Below, in pieces: positions 208-19,134 of a DNA stretch of 22,645 nucleotides; within the stretch, counting starts at the first letter, position 1, and the number at the start of each line of letters is the position of its first letter. The DNA is from Baffinella frigidus. Lineage: Eukaryota > Cryptophyceae > Cryptomonadales > Baffinellaceae. The DNA lies in the NCBI GenBank assembly GCA_026770585.1, contig MU646524.1:408149-430793 (forward strand). Reading direction: 5' to 3'. The position numbers and the translations under genes are program-made. The notes below the pieces were generated by a model that did not search any database, was not told where the DNA came from, and worked only from the letters and a program-made list of their open reading frames with translations.

Positions 208-2133
208 AGAAAGGAGGAGAAGGACGCCGAGCAGAAAGAGGAGGATGACGACAACGACGACGACGGCGACGACGCAGAAAGCATGGAGGAACTCGAGGAG
301 GAAGTGCTGGAGCTGCGCGAAGAGGCGGCGCGGCTGCGTCTGGAGTCGGATCGGTACCGCGAGGAGCGGGACCAGGCGCAGGCGTACCCCTACCTCCTAA
401 ACACTCAACACAAACATGAAATACGAAACACGAATCACGAAACCCCAAAATCCACAACCCAAAACTTAAACCCCAAAACCCAAAACCCAAAATCCAAAAC
501 CCAAAACCCAAAACCCAAACCCCAAACCCCATACCCCGAACCCCAAACCCCAAACCCCATACCCCAAACCCCAAACCCCAAACCCCAAACCCCAAACCGA
601 AACCCGAAACCATAAACCCTAAACCATAAAACCCTGGTTCAGGCGCACGGGGAGCGCATGCGCGCCGACCTCGCGGTAAGCAGCCCCCTCAACCCCGGAA
701 CTTTGAACATTAAACCCGGAACCTTGAACATTCACCCCAAACCCTAAACTCTAAGCCCTAAGCCCTCAACCCTGAACCCTTAACCCTGAAACCTGAAGTC
801 TGAACCCTGAACCCTGAACCCAAAACCCAAAACCCGAAACCCGGAGCCCTACACAAGGATGTCCAGAGCCCTGCGGAACTGTCCTTGCTTCTTACCCCCT
901 CTCTTCAAGCCACACAGCGGACGTGCGAGGGATTTTGTATAACCCGCTAGTGAATAGTCCCTAGGTCCTGCGGTAGGCAATCCCGTAGGGACCGGGGAGT
1001 GCATGCGCGCCGTTCTCACAGTCAGCAGCACGCTAACCTCTAAACCCCAAATATTAAACCCCAAACCACCCCCAACCCCAACCCCCAAACCTCAAACCCA
1101 AAACCCAAAACCCTAAACACTAAACCCTGAACCCTGAACCCTAAACCTAAACCCATAAACCCTCAACCGCTCGGACACACAGGGTATTTCGGCGAAGGGA
1201 CACGCGGTGGTGCGCCTCAACACCTCCCTCATGGCGCAAATCAAGGTGCCCCCTCTTCAACCACCCCCACCCCGTGTGAGACGGGCTCCAGGTCGGGCCT
1301 GCCTCGGGTGGAGAGATAAGTCATTTATGCAGACATTGCAGGGGTGCCTCGCTCATAAGAAAGAGCCCCCCCCCCTAGGACCACCACAGGCCCGTAGGCA
1401 TAGCCCTACTGTAGGGTCCTAGGATGAGGCGGTTTCTTATGAGCGAGGTACCCCTGTAGAGGGTGTAGGGTGTAGGGTGTAGGGTGCAGGGTGCAGGATG
1501 GAGGGTGTCCGAACCGTCCCCTCCGGCGTGCCGCGTCAGCAGCTGGAAAAGCTTCTCCAGAGAATTGCCAGCCTGTGCTCTCCCGGCCCATCCTCCTAAA
1601 ACGGGAGAGAGAGACAGAAACGGCCTCTGGCTGTACTCTCCATGCCCATCCATCCTCACCGCTGAGCAGCCAACGGGGGCTTCACGGATACAGTCCATCT
1701 AAACCATTTGTACTAGAATCGTATCCATTGCCCTGGATTTCAACCAACGCGACACGGACATGGGCCGCTGCTAAGTGGAGCGCTGGTCTCTTCCTGCTCA
1801 CCCTCCGAAATCTATGCTTTCCCTGCTCACCCCCCTCCAACGGTGTTGTCTCCCTGCCCACCTTCCCAAAGCGCTGTGCTCTCCCAGCTCATTCCCCTTG
1901 AGCGCTTTTGTATCCCTGCCCACCCTCCTAAAGCGCTCTGCTCGCTCTGCCCACCCTCGTAAATATGTCTTTTCCCTGCCCGCACTCCTACAGCTATCGG
2001 TCCCTAACGTGGCACACGTCCCGGTCTGCAGGAAATGAAGGCGGGGTCTCCCCAGAAAAGCGACTCCGGTCCGCCAGCCGCAGCGTCCGAAAGCGACGCT
2101 GCCCACGGTTCAGCCCACGGTTCGGGAGATTAG
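208..2133 (+). CDS. Coiled-coil protein, 3' part of a split gene (function unknown)
   Basis: Proposed exons: 208-383 (or 208-381), 643-675, 1183-1245 and terminal 2032-2133, with a possible extra exon near 1493-1570. The first exon follows a TGCGGCAG acceptor and encodes an acidic run (EEDDDNDDDGDDAE) and then a heptad-like charged coiled coil (MEELEEEVLELREEAARLR). The next two exons are phase 0 at both ends: AHGERMRADLA (11 aa, CAG/GTAAGC borders) and GISAKGHAVVRLNTSLMAQIK minus its last residue in the 20-residue quote limit (21 aa). The last exon follows GTCTGCAG and reads EMKAGSPQKSDSGPPAAASE to a TAG at 2131-2133. To keep AHGERM in frame, exon 1 must end at 381 before a GC donor (CAG/GCGTAC); the normal GT at 384 shifts the frame, so this border is uncertain. 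The 5' end is outside the window. No family recognised; acidic coiled-coil proteins are often scaffold or motor-associated, but nothing here proves a role. Confidence 0.5.
910..986. repeat. Dispersed repeat, copy 1 of 2
   Basis: CCACACAGCGGAC...GGGATTT...AACCC...CGGTAGGCAATCCCGTAGG resembles 5630-5712, which has CCACACAGCGGAC...GGGATTTCGAACAACCC...CAGTAGGCAATCCGTAGG. Both copies lie in introns just beside telomere-like arrays. Nature unknown; likely an old short mobile element. Confidence 0.65.
988..1018 (+). pseudogene. Relic second copy of the AHGERMRADLA micro-exon
   Basis: ACCGGGGAGTGCATGCGCGC CGTTCTCAC lines up with exon 643-675 (CACGGGGAGCGCATGCGCGC CGACCTCGC). The donor GCGGTAAGCAG has become ACAGTCAGCAG, so the 5' splice site is lost. 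It sits in the intron downstream of the intact micro-exon and looks like a decayed tandem exon duplicate. Confidence 0.55.
1339..1457. mobile_element. MITE-like palindromic element, family A, full copy
   Basis: Ends are CAGGGGTGCCTCGCTCATAA and, inverted, TTATGAGCGAGGTACCCCTG. The interior (CCCCCCCTAGGACCACCACAGG...CCTACTGTAGGGTCCTAGG) is itself palindromic, so almost the whole ~119 bp folds into one hairpin. No coding capacity: a non-autonomous element. It lies in an intron of the coiled-coil gene. At least eight relatives occur in this window; a clear target duplication is not visible. Confidence 0.85.
1458..1500. repeat. Short GTGTAGG telomere-variant array
   Basis: GGGTGTAGGGTGTAGGGTGC repeats directly after the MITE. 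It is a G-rich heptamer variant (GGGTGTA), opposite in polarity to the C-rich arrays upstream. Confidence 0.75.
1570..2000. repeat. Degenerate pyrimidine-rich minisatellite, unit ~35 bp
   Basis: Irregular copies of a unit like CCCTGCCCACCCTCCTAAAG CGCTCTG recur about nine times, including near 1575, 1795, 1820, 1850, 1880, 1913, 1940 and 1972. It forms the polypyrimidine-rich body of the last intron of the coiled-coil gene, whose acceptor is at 2029-2031. Frames through it are repeat artefacts. Confidence 0.7.
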
Positions 2134-4276: not shown

Positions 4277-7200
4277 ATGATGACGACCCGGGCTCTCGTG
4301 GCCACGGCTCTGCTGCATGCCGGCGTGGATGCCTTCCTGGCGCCTGCACTGCCGCCCGCGTGTGGCAGAGCAACACGGGTGCACGACGCGGGGATCGTGA
4401 TGGGGGCCCCAGCCTCTGGGTTGGGGTGGCAGCTTCCAGCGGGCCCTGCAGCGCGGAAGCATGGGCAGGCGGCGTTTGCGGGGCGGCGGCGCGGTGTGGC
4501 GTGCAGGATGGCAGCGGAAGCGATCACAATGGAGGAGGCCAACAGGTTACCTGCATACTCCAAAATCGGGAGGTTCAAGGTCAAGGGAATGACGGCGAGC
4601 CTGCCACTCGGGCTGCTGTTCCTGCTCGGAGCGATAGGGTGGGCGCTGGTGCTCACGCCCCCCATCGTTATGGCGTGGGTGTTCGCGAAGTGGTTCGACC
4701 CGCTCCGGCGGCGCATCGTCGACAAGGTCGTGAGCCTGTGGGCGTGGGGGGCCTGCCTGGCGATGCTCTACTTCCCGAAGCTCCAAGGCAGGGAGAACCT
4801 CCCCGGGAGGAACGAGGCGGTGATGTACATCCCGAACCACACGTCGTACCTCGACATCTTCACGCTCTCGGGATGCATCCCCCGCAGCTTCAAGTACGTC
4901 TCGAAGCAGGAGATCCTCCAAGTGCCGCCCCCGCCCTGCCCCCAGGGAGGGAGAGAGAGGGGAGGGAGAGGAGAGAGAGGGAGGGGGGGAGAGAGAGAGG
5001 GGAAGGGGAGGAGGGAGAGGCGATCGGATGGAGGAGAGATAGGGGATGCGGGCGGGGGTGACAGGCAGAGGCCACCAACCCTCACAGAAAGCCCAAATCA
5101 CTTCTGTCTATCTTTTCTGGTACAAGGACGTCGGACTCCGGCGGCCTTGTACTGGTTCGAGGACCAACCCGATTGAGGAGTTGAGCCTGCTGTGAAGGCT
5201 GGCGGCCCCTTCTCCGTCTTCCAATCACCCCACTCCATGCATGCAGCATGCATCACATCCATGCATCCAGCATTGCCGTACACCCTGCCGCACGCTCCTC
5301 CCATAGGTAGATGGTAGGGCTCTCGCATAAATGGATTGTTCTGCTCTCGGATAGGTGGATGGGAGTTGGTCCTCGTATAAGTGGATGGTAGGGCCCGCTC
5401 CACTCGCAAGTCGGGCAGGCGGAGGGAGGGGCTGACGCTTAACTTCTAGCTCTGTCCGAGTAGAGTTGGGCGCGTCATAAAATCAATTTAGGCGTCTAAA
5501 TGTTTTAAATTTGTACTGCTGCTCCTGCTGTAAAACTAACAATGACGCCCCCAATTTTTTTCGGTCAGATCTAGAACTTACGTGAATGGACCTGCGCAGG
5601 TGCCGAAAAAGTTTGTTGTTGGCCCTAACCACACAGCGGACTTCAACGGGATTTCGAACAACCCTGAAGCGATAAGACCTACGACCCTACAGTAGGCAAT
5701 CCGTAGGAATACATGGGGGGTTTATAGGGATACGGTCAAACAAACTGAGGGAGAGGAGGGTTTAACGGTTGAGGGAGACGCGCTCAACCCAACCCCCTGA
5801 ACCCTGAACCCTATACGCAGATACCGATCATCGGTTGGGCGATGCAAATGGCGGGACACATTGGGATCAAGCGCATGGTACACCCAAACCCCCAAACCCT
5901 ACACCCTAAACCCTAAACCCTAAACCCTAAATCCTAAACCCTAAACCCTAAACCCTGAAACCTAAACCCTAAACCAGGATAAGCGCTCGCAGCTGCAGAC
6001 GTTCAAGGAGACGGTAAACCCTAAACCCTAAACCACAACCCCTAAACCCCAAACCCTAAACCCCAAGTCCCAAACCTTAAACACTAAAACGTAAAACCTA
6101 AACCCCACAACTCAAATCCCAACCCCCAAACCCCAAGACCCAAACACTAAACCCCAAACCCTAAGCACTAAACCCCAAACCCCACAACTCAATCCTCAAC
6201 CCCCAACCCCCAAACCCTCAACCCCCAACCCCAAACCCCGAACCCCAAACCCCCAATCCCAAACCCCAAACCCTGAACCCTGAACCAGGTGGGGTGCCTG
6301 CAGAACGGGAACTCAGTGGTGACTTTCGCGGAGGTGAGAACCCACCTCCTTAAAACCCTAACCCTAAACCCTAAACTCCAAACCTCAAACTGAACCTAAA
6401 CCTAAACCCTAAACCCTAATCCCTAAACCCTGAACCCTCAACCCTAAACCCTAAACCCTAAACTAAACCTAAACCCTTGACCCACCTCCCTCACCCCCAC
6501 ACCCTGAACTCTGAATCGTAAACCCTCACCCATAAACACTCAAACCTAAACCCTGAAACGTAACCCCTTAACCCTAAACCCTAAACCCTAAACCGTGAAA
6601 CCTAAACCCTAAACGCTGAAACTTGAATCCTAAACCCTCACCCCTCACCCCTACACCCTAAACCCTGAAACCTCAAGACCAAAGACTAAAAACTGAAGTC
6701 TAAACACTAAACCCCAAACCCTACCCCAGGGGACACGGTCGGACGACGGGCGCCTCAAGAGCTTCAAGAAGGGCCCGATCAAGATGGCCATGCGGGTCTA
6801 CCCTAAACCCTGAACCCTGAAACCTAAACCCTGCACCCTACTCTCAACACTCAACACTCAACACTCAACACTCAACACTCAACACTCAACACTCAACACT
6901 CAACACTCAACACTAAACACTGAACACTGAACACTGGACAGTAAACACTGAACCCTAAACACTGAACCCTCAACACTACAAACTAAATCTTAAACCCTGA
7001 ACCCTGAACCCTGAACCCTAAACCCTGAACCCTGAACCCTGAACCCTACACCCTAAAGCCTGAAACCTCAACCGTGAACCCTGAAATGCGCGCAGAAACC
7101 CAAACTCCAAACCCCAAACCCCATACCCCAAACCCCATACCGCAAACCCCAAACCCCAAATCCTAAACCCTGGACCCTAACCGCAGGCTGGCGTGAAGCT

Positions 7201-7776
7201 TGTTCCGATCTCAATCTGCAACCTCTACAAGTGGATGCCAGGCTCGGCCGTAACGTACACCCGAAACCCTGCACCCTAAACCCTGAACCCTACACCCTAA
7301 ACCCTAAACTCTAATTTCTAAACCCGAAACTTCAAACCCTAAACCCTAAACCCTAAACCCTAAACCCTACACCCTAAACCCTACACCCTAAACCCTAAAC
7401 CCTAAAACCTCAAATCTGAACTTTAAACCCTAAACCCTAAACCCTAAACCCTTAACCCCAAACCCCACACCCCAAACCCCACACCTTTAACCCTAACCCT
7501 CAAACCCCAAACCCTAATCCCCACACCCCACACCCCACACCCAAAACCCCAAACCCCAAACCCCAAACCCCACACCCCACACCCTAATCCCTAATCCCCA
7601 AACCCGAAAGCAGGCCCCTGGCGGTCCCGCGCAACGTGATCGTCAAAATCCACCCCGGGATCGACCCCGAGGGAAAGACCGAGGAAGAGGTGCTACAGTA
7701 TGTCTACGATTGCGTCAACGGAGGCCTCCCTGAGCACCAGAAGCACTTGGGGTCTGTCTCGGAGGCTTCGGAGTAA
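4277..7776 (+). CDS. Plastid-type 1-acyl-sn-glycerol-3-phosphate acyltransferase (LPAAT/PlsC family), 7 exons, 359 aa
   Basis: Transfers an acyl chain to lysophosphatidic acid to make phosphatidic acid, the precursor of membrane lipids. Exons: 4277-4921, 5821-5877, 5978-6013, 6289-6333, 6730-6795, 7187-7254, 7614-7776; all GT-AG, phase 0 except the last intron (phase 2), TAA at 7774. Motif I is NHTSYLD (N187, H188, D193); motif II region IPIIGWAMQMAGHIGIKR (216-233); motif III EGTRS (261-265) is split exactly between exons 4 and 5; motif IV is VPISI plus VIVKIHPG (314-321). A hydrophobic segment at about 109-136 is a likely membrane anchor. The N-terminus has a short signal-peptide-like region with VDA^FLAP at 17-23, then an Arg/Ala-rich stretch, as in bipartite plastid presequences of secondary red algae. 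ATG 4277 is preferred over in-frame ATG 4253 because it places the signal peptide at the N-terminus. Exon 3 has only 36 bases. Confidence 0.9.
4943..5047. repeat. GA-rich microsatellite
   Basis: Runs of GGGAGAGAGAGGGGAGGGAG on the plus strand, near-pure purine for ~100 bases. The acyltransferase frame runs through it if intron 1 is not removed, giving an artefactual Gly/Arg/Glu tail. Confidence 0.9.
5446..5520 (+). repeat. Dispersed repeat E, copy 1
   Basis: CTAGCTCTGTCCGAGTAGAG TTGGGCGCGTCATAAAATCA ATTTAGGCGTCTAAATG matches the minus strand of 12324-12400 (CTAGCTCTAACCGAGTAAAG TTGGGCACATCATAAAGTAT). Both copies are intronic, in different genes. Confidence 0.75.
5882..7613 (+). repeat. Telomere-like heptamer arrays that fill acyltransferase introns 2-6
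   Basis: Introns at 5878-5977, 6014-6288, 6334-6729, 6796-7186 and 7255-7613 consist from donor to acceptor of CCCTAAA variants (CCCTAAAC, CCCCAAAC, CCCTGAAC, CCCACACC). The repeats start within a few bases of the donor (GTAAACCCTAAACCC, GTCTACCCTAAACCC, GTACACCCGAAACCC) and end at the acceptor (CCCTAAACCAG, CCCTGAACCAG, CTACCCCAG). All have the C-rich strand on the coding side. A block at 6845-6925 is a near-perfect run of the variant TCAACAC. Confidence 0.92.
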
Positions 7777-7991: not shown

Positions 7992-8111
7992 CAGGGGTAC
8001 CTCGCTCAGAAGAAACCGCCCCCCCTAAGGACCTTACACTAGGTCCATGCCTGGGGTCCTATGGTGGTCCTAGGGGAGGGGGGGCAGTTTCGTATGAGCG
8101 AGGTTCCCCTG
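7992..8111. mobile_element. Family A MITE, full copy
   Basis: Ends CAGGGGTACCTCGCTCAGAA and TATGAGCGAGGTTCCCCTG, with the central palindromic CCTATGGTGGTCCTAGG region; about 120 bp, fully foldable. Confidence 0.88.
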
Positions 8112-8228: not shown

Positions 8229-8348
8229 CAGGGGTACCTCGCTCAAAAAAAAACGCCCCCCCCTAGAGGACCCTACAGTAGGCCTATGCCTAGGGCCCTG
8301 TGGTGGTCCTAGGGGGGGAGGCGGTTTCTTATGAGCGAGGTACCCCTG
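8229..8348. mobile_element. Family A MITE, full copy
   Basis: CAGGGGTACCTCGCTCA, then an A-run where other copies have TAAGAAA, then CCTACAGTAGGCCTATGCC, ending TTTCTTATGAGCGAGGTACC CCTG. Confidence 0.88.
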
Positions 8349-8667: not shown

Positions 8668-8787
8668 CAGGGGTACCTCGCTCATCAGAAACCACCGCCC
8701 CCCCCCTAGGACCACCATAGGGCCCGAGGCATAGGCCTACTGTAGGGTCCTAGGGTGGGGTGGTTTCTTATGAGCGAAGTACCCCTG
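8668..8787. mobile_element. Family A MITE, full copy
   Basis: CAGGGGTACCTCGCTCATCA GAAACCACC at the left and GGTGGTTTCTTATGAGCGAA GTACCCCTG at the right. Arms pair over about 50 bases. Confidence 0.9.
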
Positions 8788-9093: not shown

Positions 9094-9211
9094 TGAGGCG
9101 TACCTCGCTCATGAGAAACTGCCCCCCCCCTAGGACCACCACAGGGCCCAGGGCACAGGCCTACTGTATGGTCGTAAGGGGGGGCGGTTTCCTATGCGAG
9201 AGGTGCCCCTG
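9094..9211. mobile_element. Family A MITE, diverged full copy
   Basis: GAGGCGTACCTCGCTCATGA GAAACTGCC at the left and GGCGGTTTCCTATGCGAGAG GTGCCCCTG at the right. Confidence 0.82.
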
Positions 9212-9795: not shown

Positions 9796-12700
9796 TCAGA
9801 GGCGCAGCAAGGGGTCGCGCGCGGTGTCCTTGTAGAGGATGTAGCGTGTCCGTTTGTCGCCGAGCGCTGCGTACCACTGCGGGACGAACGGCGCCATGTA
9901 GATCGCGTCGCCTGCCTGCGAGAGGGGACATTGCCTCCGTCATCTGGAATCACAGGCAATATCTGGTATCGTGTCCGGTTGTCGCCGAGCACTGCGTACC
10001 ACTGCGGGACGAAGGGCGCCATGTACACCGCGTCACCTGCCAGCGGGAGGGGATATCGCCTCCCGCATCAGTGCCCACCCCGCCGTCCCAGCTTGTAAAC
10101 TGTTTTTGATCGCACCGTTTCGAGGTTGGTGGAACAAATCGAAATGTCCAAGTCGGCAATTGGGCAAATCGAGAACGGCCAAGTCCTGGCGGAACAGCTC
10201 TCCCGCCCGATCTCATACGCAAACTTTGAATGCAAACCACCGTTTTGCCGTCTTAGGGGGGTGTCTTGTGTTATGAAAAAATGCTATGTCGAGGTCAAGA
10301 TAGCAAATGCTCATATACATTTATATATATATACATAAATAAATAAATGCTATGTCGATGCCAAGATAGCAAATTCCAGCCTCAAGACAACACAAAATGG
10401 ATTTTAAAATTCAATTTGTTGACGCGAGATTTAGTCAGCCTTCTGGTGCAAAATAGTCAACCCGCAGGTACTAATTTAAGAAAACAGTCACCGACCGAGG
10501 CTCGACCAAGGGTGTTCGTATCCCTTAAGTGACCAGTAGGCTGATACACCCTACCGTAGGGCCCTAGGACCTGCCTAGGGCTTCCACGGGCGATTATTCG
10601 CCCGTTGGTCACTTAAGGGATAGCTCGGAGATCCCGGTAGGGTCCTACGGCAGGGCTAGTCCTATCAGCATAGGACCACCCTGTGGACGGTGCGTGTCCT
10701 TGTTCGCAACAAATCTATTTACGAGCTTGCGAGCCAGACAGTCTGCGCGCAGAGCCTCCCGCCCTCAGAGTTGGAGCACATCGCCCTTTTCAATCCCCTT
10801 GATTTGTACTGAAGGCCGTTGGATTCCAACGACTCCTGGTGCGAATCAAGGGACTCAAAAAAACGGTTTGCTCCCACTCTGAGGGCTGGTGGGTGGCGAC
10901 CTGGGTCGAAAGGGTGGGGCCCTAGTACGGGGGGACTGTGGGAATCACCTGAACTGGGTACCACTTGTCGCCTAACCTGGTTTAGAGTTTGGGGTTTAGG
11001 GTTTGGGTTTTGGGGTTTGGGGTTTGGGGTTCGGGGTTTAGGGTTTAGAGTGTATGGGTTTGGGGTTTAGGGTTTAGGGTTTAGGGTGTAGGGTGTAGGG
11101 TTCAGGGTTCAGGGTTTATGGTTTAGGGTGTAGGGTGTAGGGTGTAAGATGTAGGGTCTATGGTTCAGGTTTTATGGTTCAGGTTTAGGGTGTAGGGTGT
11201 AGGGTGTAGGGTGTGGGGTGTAGTGTGTAGTATGTAGGGTTTAGGGTTTAGGATTTAGAGTTTGGGGTTTTGGGTTTAGGATTTAGGGTTTGGGGTTTGG
11301 GGTTTAGGGTTTGGGGTTTAGGGGTTTAGGGTTTAGGGGTGAGGGGTTAGGGGTTAGGGGCTAGCATGTAGGGTCTATGGTGCAGGGTCGTAACCGCTGA
11401 ATGCCCTTTCCTTCGAGGAGCATCATGCCGTGTTGGTTGTAGTGCACCTCCTGCGAAAGGGGGGACAGCCAAAGTTGAGGAAACGCCAACCCCCAAATTC
11501 AAAATCCTGAACTCCAAACCCCAAACCCTCAACCCCAAACCCCAAACCCCAAACCCCAAACCCCAAACCCCAAACCCCAAACCCCAAACCCCAAACCAAT
11601 TTTTAGCCGCNNNNNNNNNNNNNNNNNNNNNNNNNNNNNNNNNNNNNNNNNNNNNNNNNNNNNNNNNNNNNNNNNNNNNNNNNNNNNNNNNNNNNNNNNN
11701 NNNNNNNNNNNNNNNNNNNNNNNNNNNNNNNNNNNNNNNNNNNNNNNNNNNNNNNNNNNNNNNNNNNNNNNNNNNNNNNNNNNNNNNNNNNNNNNNNNNN
11801 NNNNNNNNNNNNNNNNNNNNNNNNNNNNNNNNNNNNNNNNNNNNNNNNNNNNNNNNNNNNNNNNNNNNNNNNNNNNNNNNNNNNNNNNNNNNNNNNNNNN
11901 NNNNNNNNNNNNNNNNNNNNNNNNNNNNNNNNNNNNNNNNNNNNNNNNNNNNNNNNNNNNNNNNNNNNNNNNNNNNNNNNNNNNNNNNNNNNNNNNNNNN
12001 NNNNNNNNNNNNNNNNNNNNNNNNNNNNNNNNNNNNNNNNNNNNNNNNNNNNNNNNNNNNNNNNNNNNNNNNNNNNNNNNNNNNNNNNNNNNNNNNNNNN
12101 NNNNNNNNNNNNNNNNNNNNNNNNNNNNNNNNNNNNNNNNNNNNNNNNNNNNNNNNNNNNNNNNNNNNNNNNNNNNNNNNNNNNNNNNNNNNNNNNNNNN
12201 NNNNNCCCCCCCGGACTAAACCATGAGGGTTTAGTCCTTGCTAAAATGTATTACATGTGACATATCCCGATCTGGCAAACTTCGGGTGGCTGGTGGACGT
12301 CATTATTAGTTTTAGAGCAAGGAGTCTGGTGCAAATTAAATATATTTAGACGTCTGAATATACTTTATGATGTGCCCAACTTTACTCGGTTAGAGCTAGC
12401 CGGGAGGAGGACCACCTTGAGGTTGAGGTTCTCACCGGGAGAGAAGTCCATGATATGCACGTTGAAGTCGTGCGCCACCGTCGACGGCAACAGCTTCCGC
12501 ACCTCAAACCGACTGCGTCTTTCTATTATTCCTGGTACAAAGCGGACGAAATTCGTCCGCGGATTAGTACTGATTAGACCCACACCGAGTTAGTCCGCTG
12601 TCGATTTGAGGTGCAGGGTATTGTCGCGTGGGAGGAGGAGCACCTTGACGTTGAGGTGCTCGCCGGGAGAGAAGTCCATGATATAGACATTGAAGTCGTA

Positions 12701-14185: not shown

Positions 14186-15426
14186 ATGAAGTTTGTCGGA
14201 GTTCCCCCGCAGCCCGCTCCCGCCTCGACTCGTGCGATGAGCGGCTGCTCGCACTGCGGGAAGCAGGGCGCGGCGCTCAAGCGCTGCTCGCGCTGCAAGC
14301 AGGTCTCGTACTGCGGCGCTGCGTGCCAGAACGCAGCGTGGAAGGGGCACAAGAAGACGTGCGTGACTCAGTCAGATTTGATTGCGAAGTTGAATGCGGC
14401 AAATTTCGCCAGCGACTGGCGAGGGGTGCTCAAGTGGGAGGGGCGCATGGAGGAGCTGATGGAAAATCAGGATGATGCAGGCTGCGCTACCATCCTTCAC
14501 ATGTTCGCTGAAGCGCACAGGTTGGGATCGATGGCAACGCTGAACAGAGATCATTCTCTCTCGATCGTTTCACTCTGTCTCGATCGTTTCAGGCGTGTCG
14601 AACTCCTGGGCAAGATGCAGCGTTTCCGGGACCAGGGCGAGGTCATGTGCACATGCGCCGAAAACCTCCTCGTTATTGGCAGGAGGAAGGAAGGAGAAGA
14701 ATACTTCCATCAGGCACGAAAAATTGGTCAGGCGCACGGCTTCATCTCGGTAGAATGTACTTCGTGCCTTGGTCTTGGCAAGATGGCGATGCTGGATGGG
14801 CGCACCGATGAGGGGGTAGAGCTGCTGCGAAACGCGCTGGTAGCGGCGCCGCTGTGTGAGGGGAACCCCCTCACCATGGAACTGGATGTACTCCAGGTTT
14901 TCACCACGCTCTGCCTCACACACGCAATCGACGAGGCGGAGAAAGTTATCTTGAGGTATCGAGAGGCAGCCAAGGCGGAGTCGGACAAGGTTGGGCACCT
15001 GTCCTACTGGGATTTCCACAGCATCTACGCCAGCGCGCGACTTCACGAGGTCCTGTGCACCTGCACCCCGCGTTGAGAACCCCCTTCACACTGCTCGGCC
15101 CTTGCATTCCGCCAAGGCCGATAGCGTTGCATTCCACCAATGCCGTTCTTTCCCAGCTTCCGCCACGCTCGGGCAAAGTCTCATGCACTCGTTGACCCTT
15201 GCGCTCTCACCAGGCGCGCGGGAGGCCTGAGGAGGCCGCGCGGGAGGTGCGCGCTCTGCTCGACCTCATGCGCGACAATGAGGCAGATGTCCAAGAACTA
15301 TCCGGTCGATGCCAAGACGTGTTGCGTGTCGCCAGCCTCAGCCTCAAGATCCTCGACCCGGCGCATGGGGAGGAGGAGCTCATCCAGTCTGTGGCAGATC
15401 AAATGGCGAAACTGCGCCTGGGATAG
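14186..15426 (+). CDS. MYND-type zinc-finger protein with helical C-terminal part, 2 exons, 358 aa
   Basis: Exons 14186-15049 and 15214-15426 (TAG 15424). The donor is CACGAG/GTCCTG and the acceptor TCTCACCAG/GCG, phase 0, joining ...ARLHE to ARGRPEEAAREV. The MYND finger covers residues 21-59: C21-x2-C24, C34-x2-C37, YC43-x3-C47Q, W52-x2-H55K-x2-C59, i.e. all eight Zn ligands of the family. MYND fingers mainly bind proline-rich peptides. The rest is alpha-helical with TPR-like pieces (GRRKEGEEYFHQARKIG, GRTDEGVELLRNALVAAP, GRPEEAAREVRALLD), so a protein-interaction role is likely; no SET or other catalytic domain is seen. If the intron is retained the frame stops at 15076. ATG 14186 is chosen because the upstream in-frame ATG 13997 lies inside the opposite gene; M18 is another possibility. 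A 14 bp direct repeat TCTCGATCGTTTCA lies at about 14558-14592. Confidence 0.85.
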
Positions 15427-15703: not shown

Positions 15704-15818
15704 CAGGGGTACCTCGCTAATAAGCAACCGCGCCCACCTAGAACCCTACAGTAGGGCTATGCCTAGGGCCCTATGGTGGTCCTAGGGGGGGACAGTTTCT
15801 TAAGAGCGAGGTACCCCT
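15704..15818. mobile_element. Family A MITE, full copy
   Basis: CAGGGGTACCTCGCTAATAA GCAACC at the left, TTTCTTAAGAGCGAGGTACC CCT at the right, with central CCTACAGTAGGGCTATGCC. Confidence 0.87.
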
Positions 15819-15917
15819 CCACCAGGCTATTAGTCCTGTATCACAAAAACACATTGAAAGGCGTCAAGTCATGTTCCGAAGCTGGGGCGCCGCGACGTGC
15901 CTACTGGGCACTTGAGA

Positions 15918-16297: not shown

Positions 16298-16691
16298 TTA
16301 GGGCACGTCGAGGGTTTCGCCGCGCGGGGCCGCGGAGGCGCGCATCTCATTCAGCGCCAGGAATTCGAGGATGCCGTCCGCGATCTCCCCTAGGGTTTAG
16401 GGTGTGGGGTAAAGGGTTTAGGGTTTAGGGTTTGGGGTTGAGAGTTGATGGTTTGTGGTTCAGGGTTCAGGGTTTAGGGGTTAGGGTTTAGGGTTCAGGG
16501 TTTAGGGTTTAGGGTGTAGGGTGTAGGGTGTAGGGTGTAGGGTGTAGGGTGTAGGGTGTAGGGTTCAGGGTGTAGGGTGTAGGGTGCAGGGTTCAGCATT
16601 TATGGTGCAGGGTTCAGGGTGTAAGGTTTAGAGGTTACCCGCGTGGTGTTTGTGGATGTGGTGTCCGCCGTGCGCGAACACCACCCGCGGC
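16298..16691 (-). CDS. Alpha/beta-hydrolase, last two exons (catalytic-His end)
   Basis: Exon 16691-16639 follows GTGGCCCGCAG and reads PRVVFAHGGHHIHKHHA, ending GCGG/GTAACC in phase 1. Exon 16389-16298 follows CCCTAG/GG and reads (G)EIADGILEFLALNEM... to TAA. Phases fit. GGHHIH...EIADGILEFL matches the C-terminal end of alpha/beta-hydrolases, where GH carries the catalytic histidine and a helix ending in FL follows (family knowledge). The substrate cannot be told. The intron between is entirely TTTAGGG-type on plus (CCCTAAA on the coding strand). A possible preceding micro-exon (16827-16795 region, CCCGCAG/GTCGTGTCC...ACAGG/GTACGT) is uncertain. Upstream exons are probably those at 21298-21412. 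Confidence 0.65.
16391..16632 (-). repeat. Telomere-like array filling the last hydrolase intron
   Basis: TTTAGGG, GTGTAGG (seven in a row near 16511-16563) and TTCAGGG on plus. It extends from the acceptor CCCTAG to within ten bases of the donor. Confidence 0.92.
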
Positions 16692-18979: not shown

Positions 18980-19134
18980 TTAGACCCCTCGGTGGAAGTT
19001 TATTAGACCCCTCGGTGTTAGACCCCTCGACGTTTATTAGACCCCTCGAAAGACCGATGGGTCTAATAACAAAGACCGAGGGGTCTAATAAACGTCAAAG
19101 CCCGAGGGGTCTAATAAAGAGCAACGTTTATTAG
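18980..19134. repeat. Palindromically arranged array of TTATTAGACCCCTCG units
   Basis: Four direct copies of TTAGACCCCTCG (about 18980, 19004, 19019, 19037) are followed by three inverted copies CGAGGGGTCTAA (one as CGATGGGTCTAA) up to 19115. The middle pairs GACGTTTATTAGACCCCTCG with CGAGGGGTCTAATAAACGTC. CGTTTATTAG recurs at 19125. No ORF. It could be the inverted end of a foldback element or a clustered binding-site array. Confidence 0.85.

Follow-up and report, generated by a model that had tools for sequence, protein, structure and literature searches.

In a 22,645-nucleotide stretch of the Baffinella frigidus genome (hereafter the window; C222:408149-430793, from an assembly of 382 Mb in 1,364 contigs), the gene for a PlsC-type acyltransferase contains five consecutive introns that consist, nearly from donor to acceptor, of degenerate copies of the telomere-type heptamer CCCTAAA. 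These repeat introns are real and spliced. They recur in the other genes that we sampled, and they are strand-filtered, with the C-rich strand as the sense strand at every splice site that an array approaches closely.

Structure and Splicing of the PlsC Gene

The gene lies on the plus strand and is divided into seven exons and six introns. Spliced translation affords an open 359-aa protein with a Pfam Acyltransferase domain (PF01553, E 3.6e-30). The best protein match, P0001 (source JGI), agrees at every residue over 358 aa (100% identity), starting from M2. The source contig of P0001 is only 1,199 bases long, whereas the exons cover 3,500 bases of the genome, from which we infer that this contig was derived from spliced RNA. 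Since the identity to P0001 runs uninterrupted on such a short contig, all six joins are real at the protein level, in agreement with the seven exons and the borders proposed by the initial annotation. The remaining homologues are at most 76% identical; the first among them with an organism label are from Hemiselmis (P0016, 62%; P0031, 64%), so that the gene probably belongs to a cryptophyte. When our own spliced protein-to-DNA aligner was supplied with one of the homologues (P0002, 76%), it recovered identical internal exon borders. All six introns contain stop codons in all three frames. Judged from the exon lengths, five of them are in phase 0 and intron 6 is in phase 2.

Exon 1 (4277..4921) is defined by the spliced translation and by its identity to P0001 from M2; the N-terminus that it encodes resembles, by eye, what we take to be the motif of a plastid-targeting leader. 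Intron 1 (4922..5820, 899 bp) is partly GA-rich and does not belong to the repeat introns, with a sole heptamer stretch of 34 bp close to the acceptor (5783-5816). Exons 2 to 7 are each supported by the spliced translation, by P0001 and by the alignment with P0002, and the introns between them were characterized with a hidden Markov model (HMM) that labels CCCTAAA repeats by means of seven states per strand. Exon 2 (5821..5877) is followed by intron 2 (5878..5977; 100 bp, 97% CCCTAAA-like), which reads GTACACCC...CCAG, and exon 3 (5978..6013, 36 bp) by intron 3 (6014..6288; 275 bp, 99%; GTAAACCC...CCAG). Exon 4 (6289..6333, 45 bp) precedes intron 4 (6334..6729; 396 bp, 97%; GTGAGAACCC...CCCCAG), and exon 5 (6730..6795, 66 bp) precedes intron 5 (6796..7186; 391 bp, 97%; GTCTACCC...CGCAG), which includes a local run of the variant unit CACTCAA. 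After exon 6 (7187..7254, 68 bp), intron 6 (7255..7613; 359 bp, 99%) again begins with GTACACCC and ends with GCAG, and exon 7 (7614..7776) includes the stop codon.

In introns 2 to 6 the label is always for sense CCCTAAA. It starts 1–5 nt past the first base of the donor and ends 2–6 nt before the end of the intron, and no base is labelled in any of the seven exons. The description of five successive acyltransferase introns filled with degenerate CCCTAAA therefore stands. Unit length is exactly 7 nt in 199 of the 208 units in these introns, the most frequent being CCCTAAA (40), CCCCAAA (21), and CCCTGAA (17). As a control, the shuffled window gave a labelled fraction of 0.0. When the heptamer was replaced by seven permutations of equal composition, 10–54% of the bases in introns 2 to 6 were still labelled, so part of any HMM label reflects tolerance of C/A-rich low complexity. 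Sequence reversal (0.166 of the reversed window labelled) was discarded as a chance control, because CCCTAAA read backwards is close to one of its own rotations.

Heptamer Introns in Other Genes

The pattern recurs in three further genes. In the CCT-alpha gene (C94), which we aligned with P0121 (90% identity in the compared part), sense arrays occur in 12 of the 13 modelled introns and cover 31–96% of them; the remaining one contains none. One of these introns (L032 2738-2916, 93% heptamer) has GC-AG ends (GCACACCC...CTCAG), and this join is supported by the proteins of relatives. A second CCT gene (C6) carries sense arrays in three introns and none in others, although its exons were modelled with a distant paralogue and are less sure. 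The third gene lies within the window on the minus strand and encodes, to judge by database matches, an (S)-ureidoglycine aminohydrolase. Its intron at 10977..11394 is sense CCCTAAA nearly end to end (array 10979-11388). Among its remaining introns one has a 42-bp sense array and one has no array. The preceding intron (11451-12643) holds an exception, an antisense array (11481..11597, on the plus strand) 30 nt from the acceptor that adjoins an assembly gap of 595 N. Introns with partial or no arrays thus coexist with repeat introns in the same genes (PlsC intron 1, CCT-alpha intron 6, and others).

Orientation of the Arrays and Splice Signals

The four genes contain 35 intronic arrays of at least 28 nt, of which 32 are in sense and 3 in antisense orientation. 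The arrays no more than 12 nt from a splice site are all sense (23 to 0; binomial 2.4e-7 if the arrays are independent), and the internal arrays divide into 9 sense and 3 antisense. That the strand matters, as first noted for PlsC, is therefore also seen in this larger sample. In these counts one CCT-alpha row merges two introns, and for the second CCT gene exons of 7, 8, 8, 16, and 72 nt were dropped, so that some introns are merged.

A reason for this preference is apparent from the repeat itself. A perfect (CCCTAAA)n tract contains neither AG nor GT, whereas (TTTAGGG)n contains both in every unit. The degenerate arrays preserve this difference: the 15 introns in which repeat makes up 60% or more (4,076 nt, one aminohydrolase intron being short of its last two bases) contain AG 55 times and GT 43 times as read, versus 373 and 602 times when reverse-complemented. 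The sense orientation would be favored because the CCCTAAA strand is free of these dinucleotides while its complement presents both in each unit. In addition, among arrays of at least 60 nt, an acceptor-like YAGG forms the 3' end of 18 of the 33 from the window, C94, and C6, versus 1 of 13 in C20, C1, and C7. This comparison was made without the C39 and C1202 loci, and C7 has some coding signal.

The introns in our models end with GT-AG, apart from the one GC-AG intron. Since the aligner is restricted to donors with GT or GC and to acceptors with AG, it provides no independent test of intron ends outside PlsC. A GTRAG donor and a CTRAY branch site belong to the extended consensus of spliceosomal introns, which varies between lineages, so these motifs are not strictly defining. 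By eye, 1 of 28 listed donors fits GTRAG (GTGAGA, PlsC intron 4), and the cryptophyte consensus may differ. The initial annotation had suggested that the repeat supplies a branch-point-like CTAAAC every seven bases. This idea is not supported, as CTAAA does not match CTRAY, and CTRAY occurs near the acceptor in only 3 of the 15 repeat-rich introns. With 4 occurrences in 555 nt near acceptors and 11 in 2,856 nt of mid-intron sequence, there is no clear enrichment in these introns. The contribution of the repeat to splicing would be the absence of rival sites. The view of these introns as an unrecognized class can be kept with respect to composition, but not with respect to splicing, as the GT-AG and GC-AG ends make the splicing class look ordinary.

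Array Growth and Copied Exon Edges

How the arrays may have grown was examined in 37 arrays comprising 1,411 units, 263 of which are the commonest unit CCCTAAA. Identical non-canonical units are neighbors 160 times, 2.7 times as often as in shuffles (59.5 ± 6.0), and the excess of variant neighbors has returned to chance by lag 8. Variant units are thus locally spread in the manner expected of a minisatellite. Slippage or short tandem duplication leaves such a pattern and would account for the clustering. Minisatellites that have grown in introns are likewise tandem arrays with local clusters of variants. The heptamer arrays differ from these in scale, given their presence in 12 of 13 modelled CCT-alpha introns, and in their strand bias at splice sites.

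A further trace of local duplication was found by comparing 27 exons with 24 introns or merged stretches (BLAST E < 0.05). In two of the three genes tested, introns contain copied exon edges, eight altogether. Each copy lies in an intron adjoining its source exon and points in the same direction (chance about 1e-9 under random pairing, computed post hoc), and six of them begin at the first base of the exon or finish at its last. For example, in CCT-alpha intron 11 the beginning of the following exon appears twice, in truncated form, between heptamer arrays (L032 1888-1918 and 1961-1989). In the aminohydrolase gene (minus strand), exon segments of 100–104 bp are duplicated with ~87% identity (12402-12501/12630-12729 and 9841-9944/9966-10069), and the model produced by the aligner uses one copy of each. 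PlsC contains no such copies at the same BLAST threshold. Local duplication across the border between array and exon would explain the copied edges. Together with the clustering of variants, they point to slippage or local tandem duplication, besides or in place of telomerase.

Distribution Across the Genome

Exact triple repeats of the heptamer occur 53,120 times in the genome, versus 27 times for the reversed control. Such triples are denser in the window (25 in 22.6 kb) than on average in the genome (0.139 per kb, the genome total including stretches that read N), and arrays make up 12.1% of the window on the plus strand and 7.6% on the minus strand. The repeat also occurs away from recognizable genes. 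Within C20:1-10000, a stretch chosen by position, where our codon-usage score finds no coding sequence, there are five minus-strand and three plus-strand arrays of at least 40 nt. Arrays are also present in a stretch of C1, fetched by its repeat pattern, in which coding was undetected by the same score. This score recovers most of the known longer exons; the repeat is therefore not confined to introns. As to the chromosome ends, 19 of 20 contig starts read N and the readable one (C20) starts without the repeat. Nine stretches from IMG/VR contigs with four exact units each hold only one or two short arrays.

Origin of the Heptamer Introns

The explanation that we favor, and hold to be probable, is that introns of the ordinary GT-AG kind had their interior replaced by a minisatellite of the telomere type that slippage amplified, with splicing as the filter of orientation. 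Short telomere-type tracts would enter non-coding DNA in either orientation. Replication slippage or local tandem duplication would then lengthen them, at times together with an exon edge, and introns would retain only those tracts that are compatible with splicing. A long (CCCTAAA)n tract, with stops in every frame and neither GT nor AG, could serve as filler without rival splice sites. A (TTTAGGG)n tract, in turn, would offer an acceptor-like TTTAG/GG and a GT every seven bases, and the resulting mis-splicing would lead to its removal, most of all in the vicinity of splice sites. What is left of the host intron would be its donor and acceptor.

Several observations weigh against this explanation or weaken its support. 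The contrast in orientation between arrays that abut splice sites and internal arrays reaches only p 0.034 (Fisher), three antisense arrays are nevertheless intronic (CCT-alpha has two, the aminohydrolase gene one), and the arrays are not independent because only four genes were sampled. At the 5' end of arrays, GT is similarly frequent in the gene loci (20 of 33) and in the others (6 of 13). In favor of the explanation, the register CCCTAAACCCTAAACC followed by a non-C base occurs 7,338 times genome-wide, and 450 of these exits read AGG. This is 2.9 times the 153 expected for an even share over all 48 triplets, an expectation that is not matched for composition. At the loci examined in detail, however, AGG was found in none of 11 CCCTAAACCCTAAACC exits. 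The genome-wide excess is only a hint of acceptor-like ends. Finally, the preference for replacement over creation is drawn from a single genome.

Under creation, exons would have received telomere-type repeats at double-strand breaks, either through telomerase or because telomeric DNA was captured there, and C-rich sense tracts would have become introns that brought no internal splice sites with them. Such tracts would be spliceable at once, because they contain stop codons and lack internal GT and AG. In PlsC introns 2 to 6 the repeat comes within 1–6 nt of the splice site at either end, leaving nothing recognizable of an earlier intron. Donors like GTAAACCC have the appearance of a G fused to the repeat, and the four intervening exons measure only 36–68 nt. 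The predominance of phase 0 (five of six PlsC introns, by exon lengths) also fits this scenario, and double-strand-break repair is among the mechanisms of intron gain named in PMC3443670. However, many arrays occupy only part of their intron, and the same genes also have several introns free of arrays; a target-site duplication was not demonstrated, although no systematic test was made. We regard creation as doubtful, and the same degree of doubt applies to the broader proposal that new spliceosomal introns arise throughout the genome from the telomere-type repeat and are later lengthened by slippage. It is also rather unlikely, if still worth serious consideration, that the resemblance to telomeres is coincidental or long past, and that the arrays are a satellite prone to slippage and unrelated to telomerase. 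Their high degeneracy and clustered variant units would suit such a satellite, but CCCTAAA remains the commonest unit and is present in tens of thousands of exact triples, which would fit a continually renewed source.

Two further explanations carry very little weight. Spread by an introner-like transposon, with the arrays as its body, might be considered because an element of 116–120 bp with terminal inverted repeats (TIRs) is common here and its ends border arrays in locus L003. In that locus, however, the TIR element interrupts the arrays and does not enclose them. By eye, array ends share only splice-like GT and AG motifs, and lengths range from tens to hundreds of bases, all of which makes this origin very improbable. 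That an assembler misplaced or inflated the arrays is hardly credible. N gaps do occur in or beside arrays (the 595 N beside 11481-11597 and 205 N in CCT-alpha intron 10), but such an error would not be expected to yield GT-AG borders that keep the frame, identity of the spliced protein, and arrays whose orientation agrees between genes from three contigs.

Relation to Known Systems

Interstitial telomeric sequences of primates and rodents, for which PMC7215372 and PMC2246262 report insertion during break repair, are also telomere-type repeats away from chromosome ends and are often degenerate. Unlike them, the B. frigidus arrays make up entire introns, including consecutive ones, and follow the direction of the gene. 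Introner elements of Micromonas, Aureococcus, and Amoebophrya, as described in PMC9860276 and PMC7789003, resemble the present case in that repetitive DNA forms many introns in an alga or protist. They differ in being unit elements with terminal repeats rather than a tandem heptamer. A 2022 introner survey dropped low-complexity families, because their similarity could reflect microsatellite expansion. Introns such as the present ones would therefore probably have been discarded, and similar cases may have been missed. Plant telo boxes (AAACCCTA) are telomere-type motifs in genes, some of them intronic (PMC3022908); they are single short motifs tied to gene starts, unlike the arrays of hundreds of bases that fill introns here. 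Among the matches listed from the open-access literature by title and start of abstract, a body that leaves most subscription papers outside, we found no description of introns made of telomere-type repeats.

The origin and sequence diversity of introns is a long-standing question, and here introns are built of one seven-base unit. If the repeats do create introns, this would be a route of gain beyond the seven mechanisms listed in PMC3443670, and closest to break repair. The orientation rule, by which GT and AG are absent from the sense strand of the interior, makes it possible to test in a natural setting which properties of an intron interior the spliceosome requires. Through comparison with relatives, this genome also offers a test case for a telomere-repeat route to the growth or birth of introns.

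Other Features of the Window and Sampled Loci

Three plus-strand arrays near the start of the window (388..1168, comprising 388-635, 686-854, and 1030-1168) probably lie in introns of a putative gene on the same strand (coding score 163-396, plus). On the minus strand, an array at 16391..16637 ends with ...CCCTAG directly at a probable coding exon (16304-16390) and is in sense orientation. Arrays are absent from a gene that, by eye, encodes MYND-like cysteines (14234-15058 and beyond) and from its one apparent intron.

The window contains six copies of a 116–120 bp element resembling a miniature inverted-repeat transposable element, with 24-bp terminal inverted repeats CAGGGGTACCTCGCTCATAAGAAA (1339-1456, 7992-8111, 8229-8348, 8668-8787, 9095-9211, and 15704-15819). 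TA flanks three of the six copies on the left and four on the right, and one copy on both sides. At 18997-19118, short tandem copies of TTTATTAGACCCCTCG are followed by copies of its reverse complement. Outside the window, a chaperonin match in a 446-aa open frame (C1202:9689-9916, on a small contig of 11 kb) could come from an organelle, a bacterium, or a retrocopy.

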